A stretch of 64,000 nucleotides of DNA from an uncultured Muribaculaceae bacterium. GTDB lineage: Bacteria; Bacteroidota; Bacteroidia; Bacteroidales; Muribaculaceae. Position 1 is the stretch's first letter; each line of letters begins with the position of its first letter. The position numbers were made by a program, and so were the translations under genes. The stretch is taken from positions 114,874 through 178,873 of the forward strand of contig CANQQE010000002.1 of NCBI GenBank assembly GCA_947625935.1, in the 5' to 3' direction. Shown here piece after piece: positions 15,649 to 21,247 of this stretch. The notes under the pieces were generated by a model, which saw only the letters and a list, made by a program, of their open reading frames with translations, was not told the origin of the DNA and searched no databases.

Positions 15649-15679
15649 TTTGCGCCGTTGGCCTATTTTTGTAATTTTG
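15649..15679 (+). promoter_or_regulatory. Promoter of the HU gene pair
   Basis: TTTG (15649-15652), 19 bases, then TAATTTTG (15672-15679) is a perfect Bacteroidetes consensus promoter 24 bases before the HU ATG. Confidence 0.8.
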
Positions 15680-15702: not shown

Positions 15703-15987
15703 ATGGACAATAAGACAATAGTCGGGACAATAGCTAAAAAAATGGGCAGAGAAAGCCGCGACATCAATGCTCTGATCGAGGGCCTTGCTCAAGTGCTTAA
15801 AGAGCGCTGCGGGGAGCTTGACTCAGTGGCTATCCCGGGGTTCGGTACTTTCGAGCCGGTCAAAGAAGATGAAAAAATTGTGCCAGACCTTGTCACACAC
15901 AAACGTATCATGATGCCACCGGCTATCACACTTAACTTCAAACCAAGCACATTGCTCCGCAAACGCATCAACGAGAACGACCGATGA
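15703..15987 (+). CDS. HU/IHF-like DNA-binding protein
   Basis: A 94-residue protein of the HU fold. The N-terminal helices (residues 1-45) are followed by the beta-arm saddle, with IPGFGTFEPV at the hinge (about 45-54) and the arm segment MMPPAITLNFKPS (about 70-82), where a proline is expected to intercalate into DNA. The Lys/Arg-rich tail (LLRKRI) is typical. Members bend and compact DNA as dimers. It overlaps the next HU-like gene by four bases (ATGA), so the two are translationally coupled and their products may pair as a heterodimer; that is inference. Confidence 0.88.
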   Translation: MDNKTIVGTIAKKMGRESRDINALIEGLAQVLKERCGELDSVAIPGFGTFEPVKEDEKIVPDLVTHKRIMMPPAITLNFKPSTLLRKRINENDR

Positions 15988-17105
15988 ACCACACGATAAC
16001 TTTGCCCGAACTCGTCAAGCTGCTCTCGGTTGCGACCAACAGCAGCGAAGCTACAGCCCAACAGTTTCTCGCCGAATTTTTCAACACTGTTAGTGACGCA
16101 CTCGCCGACGGTAAAAACGTGAGGATAAAAAATATCGGCACATTCGCTCTCGACGGTCTAAAACCTGGAGAGATAAGATTTCTGCCAGACAGCGATCTGG
16201 CTGAGGCGGTCAACCACCCGTTCGCCTTTTTTGAGCCTGTGGAACTCGACGATGACTTGACAGAGGAGGAATTAGCGGCAGCCGACGCCAAACCGGCACC
16301 AGTGCAGGAATCCGAGACGGAGGAGGTTGCAGGGCCAAAAACCGAGACCTCGGCATCGACCGACGCAGCCGCTGTAGACACAAGCGACGAGGCCGCGTTA
16401 CCGTCCGAAGTGGAAGAACATTTGCTGCCCGAGGGGGATGAAGATTCCGAGACCGCTCAGGAGCAAGCCGAAGTCATTGAGGTCGAAAAGGCTGAACCGT
16501 CCAAGGCTATTGATGAGCCATCACATGACGACAACAATGACAGCCGGCCGTCATCGGCACAAAAAAAGGGATTAAACCCTTGGCTGATGTTTGCCGCAGG
16601 TCTGCTTGCCGGTGTAGTCGTGGGATACCTGCTCCCCGCCATCAAAGATGGGGTGTCATCGCTATGGATGGCGGCTCCTTATGAATTTGTAGAGCCAAAC
16701 CAGCCATTGCTGCCGGCACAAGATGAGTCTACCATACCCGACATAGACAAATTAGAGGAATCACGGGACTCTCTCGACCATAGTTCAGCCAACGACACAG
16801 CCCGACAATCGGCCGCAGCCACTGCTGTAAAGCCCCTCGAGAGCCGGCCATCATCAGTAACAGATACCATAGGGCGCAACCGATTTCTGACCACAATGTC
16901 AAGAAAATATTACGGCAGGTATGAGTTTTGGGTGTACATCTATGAGGAGAACGCATCGCATCTTGGTGACCCCGACCGAATAGCTCCGGGTACTGTAGTA
17001 AACATACCGCCCGCCGGCAAATATGACATAAATCCCGATGATCCGCAATCGCTCCGAAAGGCCGCCATCAAAGCGGAGGAAATCTATGCTCCTTATCAAA
17101 AATAA
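15984..17105 (+). CDS. HU-domain membrane protein with C-terminal LysM-like domain
   Basis: A 373-residue fusion. Residues 1-85 are HU/IHF-like (IKNIGTFALDGLKPGEIRF at the arm). Residues 88-190 are acidic and disordered. KKG (194-196) precedes one transmembrane helix at about 198-220 (LMFAAGLLAGVVVGYLL). A polar linker follows, then a LysM-like segment at about 297-345 (FLTTMSRKYYGR to APGTVVNIPP). Basic residues before the helix predict the HU domain in the cytoplasm and the LysM-like domain in the periplasm. LysM domains bind peptidoglycan; HU binds DNA. The protein could therefore bridge nucleoid and cell wall, which is inference. It is coupled to the shorter HU gene by a 4-base overlap. 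Confidence 0.82.
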   Translation: MNHTITLPELVKLLSVATNSSEATAQQFLAEFFNTVSDALADGKNVRIKNIGTFALDGLKPGEIRFLPDSDLAEAVNHPFAFFEPVELDDDLTEEELAAADAKPAPVQESETEEVAGPKTETSASTDAAAVDTSDEAALPSEVEEHLLPEGDEDSETAQEQAEVIEVEKAEPSKAIDEPSHDDNNDSRPSSAQKKGLNPWLMFAAGLLAGVVVGYLLPAIKDGVSSLWMAAPYEFVEPNQPLLPAQDESTIPDIDKLEESRDSLDHSSANDTARQSAAATAVKPLESRPSSVTDTIGRNRFLTTMSRKYYGRYEFWVYIYEENASHLGDPDRIAPGTVVNIPPAGKYDINPDDPQSLRKAAIKAEEIYAPYQK

Positions 17106-17275: not shown

Positions 17276-18271
17276 ATGAGCGAATCGGTAAATATCAGAG
17301 AGCTTAATGATCTCGTCGCCGGGAAAAGCGACTTTATCAACCTCATCACACACGGAATGGACCAGACCATCGTTGGTCAGAAACACCTCGTCGAGTCATT
17401 GTTAATCGCGTTGCTTTCCAACGGCCATGTACTGCTTGAGGGAGTCCCCGGTCTTGCGAAAACACTCGCTATAAAGACCCTCGCACAGCTGATTGACGCA
17501 AAATACAGCCGCATACAGTTCACCCCAGACCTGTTGCCCGCCGATGTCGTCGGCACTATGGTCTACAGCGTGCAGAAAGAACAGTTTCAGGTGAAAAAAG
17601 GCCCTGTCTTCGCCAACTTCGTTCTCGCCGATGAAATCAACCGCGCCCCTGCGAAAGTGCAAAGCGCACTGCTTGAGGCTATGCAGGAACGTCAGGTCAC
17701 AATCGGCGACAAAACGTTCGCTCTCGATGAGCCGTTCCTTGTAATGGCGACCCAAAACCCCATCGAGCAAGAAGGCACCTATCCGCTTCCCGAAGCGCAG
17801 GTCGACCGATTCCTGCTAAAAGTCGTGATTGGCTACCCAAGCAAAGATGAGGAGAAACTTATCATACGTCAGAATATATCCAACGAGAAAAAGAAGATTG
17901 TCCCTCTGTTGAAACCACAAGAAATCATCGAGGCACAAAAAATCGTCGAACAAATCTACATTGACGAAAAAATAGAGCGTTACATCGTCGACATAGTGTT
18001 CGCTACACGTTTCCCGTCAGACTATAATCTTAATGACCTGACAAGCATCATCGCATTCGGAGCGTCGCCGCGCGCGTCGATAAGTCTTGCCCGTGCCGCC
18101 CGCTCCTACGCATTCCTGCGTCAGCGCGGATATGTGATTCCGGAGGATATACGCGCCGTGTGTCACGACGTGTTGCGCCACCGCATCGGTCTCACCTACG
18201 AGGCCGAGGCCAACAACATCACTACCGACGAGATTATTTCAGAAATACTTGACAAGGTTGAAGTGCCCTAA
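17276..18271 (+). CDS. MoxR-family AAA+ ATPase
   Basis: A cytoplasmic AAA+ chaperone-like ATPase (331 residues) that in related systems works with von Willebrand factor A (VWA) proteins. Walker A is GVPGLAKT (56-63), Walker B is VLADEINRAP with Asp119-Glu120, and sensor 1 is MATQNPIEQEGTYPLPEAQ. Length is normal for MoxR. It opens the aerotolerance cluster and is followed by the DUF58 gene and batA-E, the standard Bacteroidetes arrangement. It probably uses ATP to remodel the VWA-domain partners BatA and BatB. Confidence 0.95.
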   Translation: MSESVNIRELNDLVAGKSDFINLITHGMDQTIVGQKHLVESLLIALLSNGHVLLEGVPGLAKTLAIKTLAQLIDAKYSRIQFTPDLLPADVVGTMVYSVQKEQFQVKKGPVFANFVLADEINRAPAKVQSALLEAMQERQVTIGDKTFALDEPFLVMATQNPIEQEGTYPLPEAQVDRFLLKVVIGYPSKDEEKLIIRQNISNEKKKIVPLLKPQEIIEAQKIVEQIYIDEKIERYIVDIVFATRFPSDYNLNDLTSIIAFGASPRASISLARAARSYAFLRQRGYVIPEDIRAVCHDVLRHRIGLTYEAEANNITTDEIISEILDKVEVP

Positions 18272-18367: not shown

Positions 18368-19243
18368 ATGGACGCTAACGAGCTTCTAAAAAAGGTAAGG
18401 AAAATAGAGATCAAGACTCGCGGGCTCTCCAACAATATATTTGCCGGAGAGTACCACTCGGCCTTCAAAGGCAGAGGTATGACCTTTTCGGAAGTGCGTC
18501 AATACCAGTACGGCGATGACGTGCGCGACATTGACTGGAATGTCACGGCGCGCCACAACCAGCCATATGTCAAGGTTTATGAGGAAGAACGCGAGCTGAC
18601 CGTGATGCTGCTGATTGACGTGTCAGGCAGCCGCAACTTCGGAGCTGTAGGCGTCCAAAAGCGGGAGATGATAGCGGAAATCGCTGCCACACTGGCATTT
18701 TCGGCTATACAGAACAATGATAAAATCGGGGTTATTTTCTTTTCTGACAAAATCGAGAAATTCATTCCTCCAAAGAAAGGTAAAAAACATATATTGTTTA
18801 TAATCCGTGAACTTCTCGATTTCACGCCTGAAAGCAAAGGCACCGACATATCGATGGCGTTACGTTACTTCACTGACGCATTGAAAAAACGTTGCACCAC
18901 ATTCCTTATCTCAGACTTCATCGACACCCACGACTACTACAAAGCCCTGTCAATCGCCTGCAACAAGCATGACGTGATCGGCATCCAAGTCTATGACAAG
19001 CGCGACGCACAGCTTCCCAATGTGGGTCTTATGCGGGTAACCGACCTCGAGACAGGACGTGACCGTTGGGTCAACACATCATCAGCGAAAGCCCGACAAG
19101 TCTACAATAAATGGTGGTATGAACGGCAACAACAGATGACATCGACACTTAGCCGTTGCCGAGTCGATATGACCTCGGTGGCTACTGACGAAGACTATGT
19201 AAAATCACTGATGGGTCTGTTTAAACGCCGAGGCACACGTTAA
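18368..19243 (+). CDS. DUF58 domain protein with degenerate VWA fold
   Basis: A 291-residue protein of the DUF58 family. The diagnostic block GRGMTFSEVRQYQYGDDVRDIDW covers about residues 35-57. A VWA-type metal-site motif DVSGS is at 84-88. No membrane segment is seen, so it is probably cytoplasmic or peripheral. It sits between the MoxR ATPase and the membrane components of the bat cluster, where it is thought to act with MoxR as part of a chaperone module. A 96-base gap separates it from moxR, and 22 bases separate it from the next gene. Confidence 0.92.
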   Translation: MDANELLKKVRKIEIKTRGLSNNIFAGEYHSAFKGRGMTFSEVRQYQYGDDVRDIDWNVTARHNQPYVKVYEEERELTVMLLIDVSGSRNFGAVGVQKREMIAEIAATLAFSAIQNNDKIGVIFFSDKIEKFIPPKKGKKHILFIIRELLDFTPESKGTDISMALRYFTDALKKRCTTFLISDFIDTHDYYKALSIACNKHDVIGIQVYDKRDAQLPNVGLMRVTDLETGRDRWVNTSSAKARQVYNKWWYERQQQMTSTLSRCRVDMTSVATDEDYVKSLMGLFKRRGTR

Positions 19244-19265
19244 GCCCATAAAACCCGAACGCGAT

Positions 19266-20261
19266 ATGAAAATCAGACTAACACATATTATCATCGCAGT
19301 CTCAGCGGTGCTGTCGTCAATGACATCCTCAGCAGCTACCCACAGCGTGAAAGCATCGCTCGACTCGGCTTACCTGCTGATGGGCCGTCAGACTCGGCTT
19401 CACCTTGAAATCATCGAGGACAAAGACGCTGCCGGACAACTGTTAATAAAGGGCGACACTCTTGTCAAGGAGGTTGAGGTAATAGATATGTCACAAGCCG
19501 ACACCACCGACTTAGGCAACAATCGGGTTCAAATCAAGCGAGACCTGCTGATACAGTCTTTCGACTCAGGGTTATACACCTTGCCTCCTATTCTCTACGC
19601 ATCGGGGGGCGATACGTCGGCCACCGACCGGCTGACGCTTAAAGTGATACCCGTTTCGGTCGATTCGCTGGCGACAATCCATACCTACGCCGGAGTTGAG
19701 GAAGGGGAAAGCCGATGGTATGACTTTATGCCCGACTGGATTACCGACTACTGGGGATGGTATTTACTCGCTGCAATCCTGATTGCCGGAGGAATAGTCG
19801 GCTATCTTCTCATCACCAAGAAGGGCCGCGCCGTAATTCTCCCCGCCAAGAAACCAGTGCCTCCCTATGAGCTTGCCATGCGTCAGCTCAACGAGCTTAA
19901 AGAGCAACATCTTTGTGAAAACGGACAGGAACGGGAATTTTACACGCGCCTGACCGAAATACTCCGCGACTACCTCGCACGCCGTTTTGGTATCAACGCT
20001 ATGGAAATGACATCGTCACAAATCGTGTCGATACTGGAATCGAACGCTGAGACCAAGCTGCCAAACCGCTATATGAAGCAGATACTGGAGATCGCCGACT
20101 TCGTGAAATTCGCCAAAGCGCGCCCGCTGCCCGACGATAACGTCAAGGCTTTCAGCTCGGCCATGCAGTTTGTCGAGGATACGCGTCCGCTGCCCGAACC
20201 TGAAAGCCCCAAGGGTTCAGAAGAATCCACCATTAACGACAAAAACAGAAAGGAGCAATGA
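19266..20261 (+). CDS. Bat-cluster membrane protein with periplasmic domain
   Basis: A 331-residue single-pass membrane protein. It has a signal peptide (about 1-24), a beta-rich periplasmic domain, a transmembrane helix at about 164-186 (WYLLAAILIAGGIVGYLL) and a cytoplasmic tail of about 140 residues. The tail contains EREFYTRLTEILRDYLARRFG, which resembles the DUF4381-type tail found in other MoxR/VWA clusters and in BatD. The last 30 residues are Pro/Glu/Ser-rich. Its stop overlaps the batA start (ATGATG), so translation is coupled. It has no bat letter; by layout it looks like a half-size relative of BatD. That relation is inference. Confidence 0.75.
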   Translation: MKIRLTHIIIAVSAVLSSMTSSAATHSVKASLDSAYLLMGRQTRLHLEIIEDKDAAGQLLIKGDTLVKEVEVIDMSQADTTDLGNNRVQIKRDLLIQSFDSGLYTLPPILYASGGDTSATDRLTLKVIPVSVDSLATIHTYAGVEEGESRWYDFMPDWITDYWGWYLLAAILIAGGIVGYLLITKKGRAVILPAKKPVPPYELAMRQLNELKEQHLCENGQEREFYTRLTEILRDYLARRFGINAMEMTSSQIVSILESNAETKLPNRYMKQILEIADFVKFAKARPLPDDNVKAFSSAMQFVEDTRPLPEPESPKGSEESTINDKNRKEQ

Positions 20262-21247
20262 TGCAACTCGCACATCCCGAATATCTATGGTTGTTTCTCA
20301 TTTATGTGCCCTTGATTGCATGGTACATCCTGAAACACCGCAACGCCCACGCACCACTCGAAATATCGACCGTGGCTCCATTCGCAGGGTTGCGCCGCTC
20401 TATGAGAGAGTGCTGCCTGCACGGGCTATTTTTGCTCAGGCTTCTCACAATAGGCTGCGTGATTATCATCTTAGCCCGACCACAATCACATGACAATTGG
20501 CGCACGTCGAACACCGAGGGTACTGACATCGTTATCGCGCTCGACATATCGTCAAGTATGCTTGCCCGCGATTTCAAGCCCGACAGGCTTGAAGCCGCAA
20601 AAGCGGTAGCCACTAAATTCGTAGCCGGACGCGAAAGCGACAACATCGGTTTAGTCATATTCGCCGGCGAGAGTTTCACGGCCGTACCGATGACAATGGA
20701 TCGCCCGACATTGACCAACTACATCTCAAGCATCGAGACCGGGATGATCGAGGACGGAACTGCCATAGGCGACGGTCTGGCCACAGCTATCAACCGCATC
20801 AAGGACGGCAAAGCCAAGTCAAAAAGCATCATACTGCTCACTGACGGCTCAAACAACACAGGCAATGTCGCCCCGGTGACAGCGGCTGAAATCGCCGCCA
20901 AATATGGCATCAAAGTCTATACAATCGGAATAGGCCGCAACGGTATGGCCCCCTACCCGACCCAAAATATATTCGGCCGTATAGAATATGTCAACCAACC
21001 CGTAGTCATCGACGAAGCCACGCTGAAATCCATCGCCTCGGTAACCGGCGGCCGATATTTCCGAGCCACCGGCAACAACGTGTTGCAAGAGGTGTTTGAG
21101 GAAATCGACCAACTTGAAAAGACGTCGATGGATATACGCCACTTCTCTCACACCGAAGACAACTATATGTTGTGGGCGATACTGGCGTTAGGATTTTTTA
21201 CTCTTGAGATTGTATTGCGCCAGACATGGCTGCGCACAATCCCCTAA
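20258..21247 (+). CDS. batA: BatA, VWA-domain aerotolerance protein
   Basis: A membrane-anchored von Willebrand factor A protein (329 residues). Helices lie near residues 8-25 and 55-74, then comes the VWA domain with a complete metal-ion site start DISSS (96-100), and a C-terminal helix near 305-322. The order of MoxR, DUF58 and two VWA proteins followed by TPR proteins is the Bacteroides aerotolerance operon, shown to aid survival in air. BatA presumably forms a complex with BatB and the TPR proteins at the inner membrane. Its start overlaps the preceding gene by four bases, and batB follows after 27. Confidence 0.93.
   Translation: MMQLAHPEYLWLFLIYVPLIAWYILKHRNAHAPLEISTVAPFAGLRRSMRECCLHGLFLLRLLTIGCVIIILARPQSHDNWRTSNTEGTDIVIALDISSSMLARDFKPDRLEAAKAVATKFVAGRESDNIGLVIFAGESFTAVPMTMDRPTLTNYISSIETGMIEDGTAIGDGLATAINRIKDGKAKSKSIILLTDGSNNTGNVAPVTAAEIAAKYGIKVYTIGIGRNGMAPYPTQNIFGRIEYVNQPVVIDEATLKSIASVTGGRYFRATGNNVLQEVFEEIDQLEKTSMDIRHFSHTEDNYMLWAILALGFFTLEIVLRQTWLRTIP

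Follow-up and report, generated by a model that had tools for sequence, protein, structure and literature searches.

An HU-LysM protein and its HU partner in Bacteroidales: a possible asymmetric heterodimer between nucleoid and wall

Introduction

A gene that may bear on how the chromosome is tied to the cell envelope in Bacteroidales lies in the window, a 64,000-nucleotide stretch of an uncultured Muribaculaceae genome. Its product, HU2-LysM, begins with an HU-like domain and ends in a LysM-like domain, and a small free HU-family protein, HU1, is encoded directly upstream. A first-pass annotation of this DNA proposed that HU2-LysM bridges DNA and wall with the free HU protein as its dimer partner. 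Does the pair hold DNA at the wall, and does it do so in this species? We find the bridge plausible for the family and doubtful for the window species, in which HU2 is armless and the HU1 arm is without Arg and Pro.

Results

Architecture of the Locus and of HU2-LysM

The open reading frame at 15984..17105 (forward strand, as are all features below) encodes 373 amino acids in the order HU, linker, transmembrane helix, linker and LysM, as judged from Pfam, NCBIfam, a family profile, AlphaFold and Foldseek. HU1 (15703..15987, 94 aa), the presumed dimer partner, is recognized by PF00216, its AlphaFold model and its arm residues. According to the ORF coordinates, its stop codon overlaps the start codon of HU2-LysM in the tetranucleotide ATGA (15984..15987), which suggests translational coupling of the two genes. 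HU1 matches PF00216 above the cut-off over the whole model (2.4e-14), and modeled alone it has a mean pLDDT of 85 and a pTM of 0.56 with an HU-like order of helices and strands.

The HU2 domain (residues 1-76, 15984..16211) also matches PF00216 above the cut-off (E=3e-7), over residues 8-56 only, and Foldseek pairs it with E. coli HU beta (target TM-score 0.83, prob 1.00, E 2.5e-3). The reading of this part as HU-like is therefore sound for the fold but not for completeness, as the arm alignment leaves a DNA-binding arm of just 11 residues. It is followed by an acidic, disordered and presumably cytoplasmic linker (approximately residues 81-193, 16224..16562; pLDDT mostly below 50); counted over residues 81-201, the 121 residues up to the membrane helix carry a net charge of -29. 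The best 19-residue hydrophobic window covers residues 202-220 (16587..16643; mean hydropathy 2.11), and the AlphaFold model places the helix at residues 199-215 with low confidence. On the HU side of the helix, where the first-pass annotation had noted basic residues, stands KK (residues 194-195, 16563..16568); the positive-inside bias in the window protein is small, with 2 flanking K/R on the HU side versus 1 on the other. The second linker (16644..16856), delimited from AlphaFold and a charge count, would be periplasmic. Then come the LysM domain of the Kbp/YgaU type (residues 292-343, 16857..17012; profiles, pLDDT and Foldseek) and, after the LysM fold, a partly conserved, helical tail, KYDINPDDPQSLRKA... 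(17013..17096; alignment, and a helix at 354-371 in AlphaFold). The AlphaFold model of the whole protein, computed from 8 homologous sequences, has a mean pLDDT of 59.6 and a pTM of 0.28, and much of it is disordered; pLDDT is approximately 69-88 in the HU domain, 84-94 in the LysM domain and 50 in the membrane helix, and mostly below 50 in the linkers.

The C-Terminal Domain

The LysM assignment of the first-pass annotation is upheld for the fold and for relatedness to solved LysM domains, but not for a match of the window protein to PF01476, which it lacks. Six of 29 family members match PF01476 at E values up to 1 (best 3.6e-4). The window C-terminus matches NCBIfam PRK11198 at 7e-5, which is far under the model cut-off, and the Kbp sequence in the PDB at 0.004. 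The 29-row family profile reaches 1.2e-10 against the LysM of Kbp, 1.3e-4 against the fungal Ecp6, and 2e-5 to 7e-5 against tail, baseplate and LysM-named proteins. Foldseek superimposes the model on Kbp (7pvc) with an rmsd of 1.1 over 53 columns at E 0.02-0.05, and all Foldseek E values for the HU2-LysM model are modest (none at or below 0.001). By profile and model alike, the C-terminal domain is best described as a divergent LysM fold. Among solved LysM domains the closest is the one in Kbp, which its PDB name describes as potassium-binding, so the fold by itself does not imply that peptidoglycan is bound.

The same LysM type also occurs in proteins with no recognized HU domain. Four of seven such proteins that were scanned carry an OmpA domain (L061, L130, L167 and L169), L061 also having a beta-barrel match above the cut-off, and the other three gave no Pfam hit. 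The OmpA domains point to a periplasmic place for this LysM type independently of the charge rule. Two arrangements may be singled out: a 219-aa TM-LysM protein with this LysM type and no recognized HU domain (L161:7181-7840, minus strand), and an HU2-like-TM-LysM gene (L168:6060-7456, plus strand) closely followed by a second small TM-LysM gene that is HU-less.

Distribution and Topology in Bacteroidales

We collected 78 HU-LysM proteins, from 71 of 393 sampled Bacteroidales genomes (the window's own included) and from 7 contigs whose species may overlap with those of the 71 genomes; together they bear 19 family labels. The 71 of 393 is a lower bound because weaker profile matches (E above 1.4e-14) were mostly left unfetched. 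The loci comprised profile rows down to 1.4e-14, weaker genomes from a single-sequence search and 8 contigs, 91 with the window, and the 13 that did not yield one of the 78 hold an HU-less LysM protein, a cut gene, a lone HU gene or, in one case (L168), a protein whose LysM match fell short of the cut. Of 149 Bacteroidales genomes covered by the single-sequence search, 28 gave a relative, and 25 of these 28 have HU-LysM. The C-terminal profile matched 110 of the 393 genomes at E<=1e-3. Across the phylum, 6 of 296 genomes had a match to the LysM profile at E<=1e-12, and 3 of the 6 belong to Bacteroidales (own included). A literature search, with most subscription journals outside its reach, found no paper on an HU-LysM protein among those listed.

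The proposed layout of HU domain, acidic linker, single transmembrane helix and LysM fold is borne out by the window ORF and is common to the 78 homologues, which is beyond chance. A hydrophobic window with a mean hydropathy of at least 1.6 is present in 77 of the 78 (one misses the threshold), and three have a second hydrophobic stretch. The HU side of the helix has more K and R than the other side in 59 proteins, as many in 10 and fewer in 9. These counts agree with the orientation put forward earlier, and the HU part is thus predicted to be cytoplasmic and the LysM part periplasmic.

A tree of the LysM domain was built from 94 kept columns. Because 27 of its 75 inner branches are unresolved, it allows only coarse statements; the window falls inside a supported group of 13 rows with Muribaculaceae and Barnesiella contigs, which makes an origin in this section of the order probable.

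Pairing of HU1 and HU2

In 69 of the 78 cases HU1 is the next gene upstream, in the same orientation; in 8 it is fused with HU2 into one chain (L060, L069, L079, L152, L158, L160, L163 and L170), and in one (L164) it is absent. The two genes overlap in 58 of the 69 two-gene loci, a count in which small errors are possible as starts were taken as the first ATG, GTG or TTG. The fused form is spread over four families (f20, f30, f59 and f87), in two of which (f20 and f59) unfused relatives stand alongside fused ones, and the fused state changes six times on the LysM tree. Natural fusion in 8 of 78 points to an HU1:HU2 heterodimer and is good evidence that the two belong together. The free HU protein as partner, as proposed earlier, is thus well supported as a pairing, and the formation of the dimer itself is what we infer from it.

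DNA-Binding Arms

Arm lengths were measured by alignment to a housekeeping HU of the window's own genome. The HU1 arm has 26-28 residues in 77 of 77 cases. The HU2 arm has 28 residues in 52 of 78 and 24 in two, both fused; in the remaining 24, the window included, it is cut to 8-17 residues. Proline and arginine were counted in 28-residue arms only, which leaves out 4 of the 24 loci with an armless HU2. Where HU2 is armed, the HU1 arm carries proline in 53 of 53 cases and arginine in 50 of 53, versus 7 of 20 and 1 of 20 where HU2 is armless. The armed HU2 itself has proline in none of 52 cases and arginine in 51. The net charge of the HU1 arm averages +4.55 beside an armed HU2 versus -0.08 beside an armless one, and that of whole HU1 from two-gene loci +6.41 (n=51) versus +0.67 (n=18). 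These patterns suggest that the two subunits of the typical pair are unequal, the dimer having a single intercalating proline, placed on the soluble HU1, and that where the HU2 arm is gone the DNA contacts of HU1 are mostly gone too.

The state of the arm changes 7 times on the LysM tree, with at least 3 changes forced by supported branches. The armed L007 is placed among 12 armless rows, and it would be wrong to count every change as a loss. For a comparison between loss of the HU2 arm and decay of HU1, the supported branches provide three independent pairs; the sign test over them gives a median p of 0.25, and with three pairs the coupling is unable to reach significance. A link between fusion and armlessness was considered as well, 6 of 8 fused proteins being armless versus 18 of 70 others (Fisher p=0.009, relatedness ignored), and was dropped because three pairs on the tree give a median p of 1.

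In the window, the HU part does not retain the DNA contacts that a bridge to DNA would call for, an outcome that the first-pass annotation itself had named as refuting its reading. The HU2 arm has 11 residues versus 28 in a full arm, and the HU1 arm (EPVKEDEKIVPDLVTHKRIMMPPAITLN), which could have compensated and is of full length, has Lys and Leu at the Arg and Pro sites and a net charge of -1. It is somewhat unlikely, in our judgment, that the window-species pair nevertheless attaches the nucleoid to the wall by binding DNA with contacts of the HU body, not of the arms. The HU fold is kept in both proteins, HU1 has a net charge of +2 and a basic C-terminal end, and a precedent exists in the membrane-anchored Rv3852, as far as the parts of its description consulted tell (PMC8233713). 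This reading has to contend with an HU2 that has lost its arm and has a net charge of -4 and with the acidic HU1 arm just described, in a genome where a housekeeping HU has a net charge of +5 and a canonical arm.

Genomic Neighborhood

Downstream of the pair lies a bat cluster that starts with a MoxR-type AAA ATPase (17276..18271; recognized from its ORF and the adjacency counts), a relative of which in L053 matches AAA_3 and bpMoxR. It continues with ORFs that we take to be DUF58-like, BatX-like and BatA-like (18368..21247), the order of which is kept in relatives. The adjacency to the bat cluster noted earlier is recurrent: among the 76 loci with at least 2.5 kb downstream, 48 have MoxR within 400 nt and 49 have the chain MoxR-DUF58-BatX-BatA, the extra locus presumably being L166, where MoxR is 1.65 kb away. 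In the other 28 of the 76, MoxR is not within 400 nt, which speaks against an obligatory bond to Bat. The downstream gene was looked at in nine of these 28 and is, on either strand, an unrelated gene each time (Usp, MscS, LicD twice, acetyl-CoA hydrolase, TrmD-type, DUF1599, Na+/H+ antiporter and sigma-54). Upstream of the pair, ten loci have RimO-type radical SAM (two), polyphosphate kinase (two), Rho, a TonB receptor, a T9SS plug, an M49 peptidase, a methyltransferase and a Clp ATPase. The pair is thus often, but not always, found with Bat.

This association raises the possibility that the HU pair serves the MoxR/Bat envelope system as a docking module for proteins, in which LysM would sense or grip the wall while MoxR or a vWA protein is recruited and no DNA is involved. 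Besides the neighborhood, the fact that the window lineage has lost its DNA contacts fits such a role, and the HU domains of eukaryotic CCDC81 were reportedly predicted by Burroughs and colleagues in 2017 to bind proteins. The loci without a nearby MoxR weigh against it, however, and so do the full or nearly full HU2 arm in 54 of 78 and the HU1 arm that is basic on average. As an account of the pair we consider it unlikely.

A promoter-like sequence, TTTG-N19-TAATTTTG (15649..15679), was found by a script pattern match between the divergent rsgA and HU1; we take this pattern to be the Bacteroides-type promoter consensus and the site to be a putative promoter. With such a site just upstream, and with IHF-like proteins being known to regulate, the pair might instead be a membrane-held transcription regulator that acts on local promoters with its activity set by the state of the wall through LysM. 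Yet the Pfam scan of HU2-LysM found no further DNA-reading domain and the pair occurs in differing neighborhoods, and we regard such a regulator as very improbable.

Discussion

A Probable Membrane-Held HU Pair

The explanation that we favor, and hold to be probable by a modest degree, is a membrane-held HU1:HU2-LysM pair that holds DNA where it is armed and, in the window lineage, binds DNA weakly or holds protein. HU1 and the HU part of HU2-LysM would be the two halves of a dedicated HU heterodimer at the inner membrane, and the helix of HU2-LysM would span the membrane, leaving the LysM in the periplasm to hold on to peptidoglycan or to a partner in the envelope. The long acidic linker in the cytoplasm may give the pair reach and keep it from non-specific contacts. 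In the commonest form, that with a full or nearly full HU2 arm, HU1 would give the sole intercalating proline and HU2 a second arm free of proline, and a pair armed in this way would be able to hold chromosomal DNA at the wall. In the lineage of the window, with the HU2 arm and the DNA-contact residues of the HU1 arm lost, the scaffold would most likely bind DNA weakly or hold protein, possibly that of the neighboring MoxR/Bat machinery.

For the family, a tether between nucleoid and wall is a fair hypothesis, and holding DNA to the wall is a reasonable reading of the relatives with full arms. For the window species, a protein-docking version appears about as likely as tethering. The broadest statement of the idea, namely an asymmetric HU heterodimer between nucleoid and wall that was turned into a protein clamp in several lineages by loss of the HU2 arm and decay of the other arm, is tentative and, taken as one claim, doubtful.

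Within the family, HU pairs range naturally from two-armed to armless, a gradation on which the point where an HU protein ceases to bind DNA can be studied directly. With members under 19 family labels in Bacteroidales, the pair may exist in an organism that is open to experiment. If the proposal is true, the step from DNA clamp to protein clamp may resemble the origin of the CCDC81-type HU pairs in eukaryotic centrosomes, and the conversion would be visible at several stages in Bacteroidales.

Comparison with Known Systems

The LysM of Kbp/YgaU (7pvc) is the best sequence match to the C-terminus of HU2-LysM and, together with related biosensors, the best-ranking fold match among LysM entries. 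Kbp itself has a BON domain and is not known to have an HU domain or a membrane helix.

A survey of HU proteins delineates a Bacteroidetes clade, HU_bacL, with long charged C-terminal extensions, an average of 238 residues and a composition of 19 K, 9 R, 13 D and 31 E (PMC5683647, in the portions consulted). For the 70 unfused HU-LysM proteins, which can be likened to that set by its description, the corresponding means are 322 residues and 22.6 K, 9.6 R, 22.5 D and 39.9 E; the words membrane and LysM do not occur in the main text of the survey (PMC5683647). A functional precedent is Rv3852, a mycobacterial membrane-anchored nucleoid protein with one helix and a link to wall machinery, according to the sections of its source consulted (PMC8233713). 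It resembles HU2-LysM as a DNA-associated protein tied to the membrane by one helix, but is annotated as H-NS, not HU, and those sections mention no wall-binding domain past the membrane.

The nearest known kind is the HU-CCDC81-SPOR protein (PF18174, PF18175), which is present in the window's own genome (L045: PF18174 8.5e-26, PF18175 4.5e-15, SPOR merely at E=0.17). A Bacteroidetes HU-CCDC81-SPOR protein was reportedly described in 2017, in the same work of Burroughs et al., with a predicted role in chromosome partition. PF18174 is found in 131 of 149 genomes of the order at E<=0.001, and in 20 of the 25 HU-LysM genomes of this sample. In HU2-LysM, PF18174 is not among the listed matches, PF18175 scores 23.1 against a 35-bit cut-off, and the Pfam scan gave no match to SPOR; HU1 matches PF18174 under the cut-off. 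When the HU domains of one SPOR protein (L171) were compared with the HU1 and HU2 profiles, the best score was 10.5 bits (HU1 profile) and the others were at most 3.8, with housekeeping HU proteins far above them, so that common descent of the two pairs is unsupported as far as L171 goes.

A 628-aa protein encoded at L162:4653-6539 (plus strand) has a TM-LysM end as in HU2-LysM and no Pfam hit above chance; by eye, its N-terminus resembles a CCDC81-like HU pair (VVIPGLGYLELK, then an armless second domain), and it may join the SPOR and LysM lines.

The two kinds differ in that HU-CCDC81-SPOR has both HU domains in one chain and ends in SPOR, whereas HU1 is mostly a separate gene and HU2-LysM ends in LysM. 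By profiles HU2-LysM is not a member of the HU-CCDC81-SPOR kind, yet it probably works like it: both combine two HU domains with a hydrophobic stretch and end in a domain of a wall-binding type, and in L045, judged by eye, an arm with PP is found in the first HU domain, as in HU1, and the second is armless, as is HU2 in the window.
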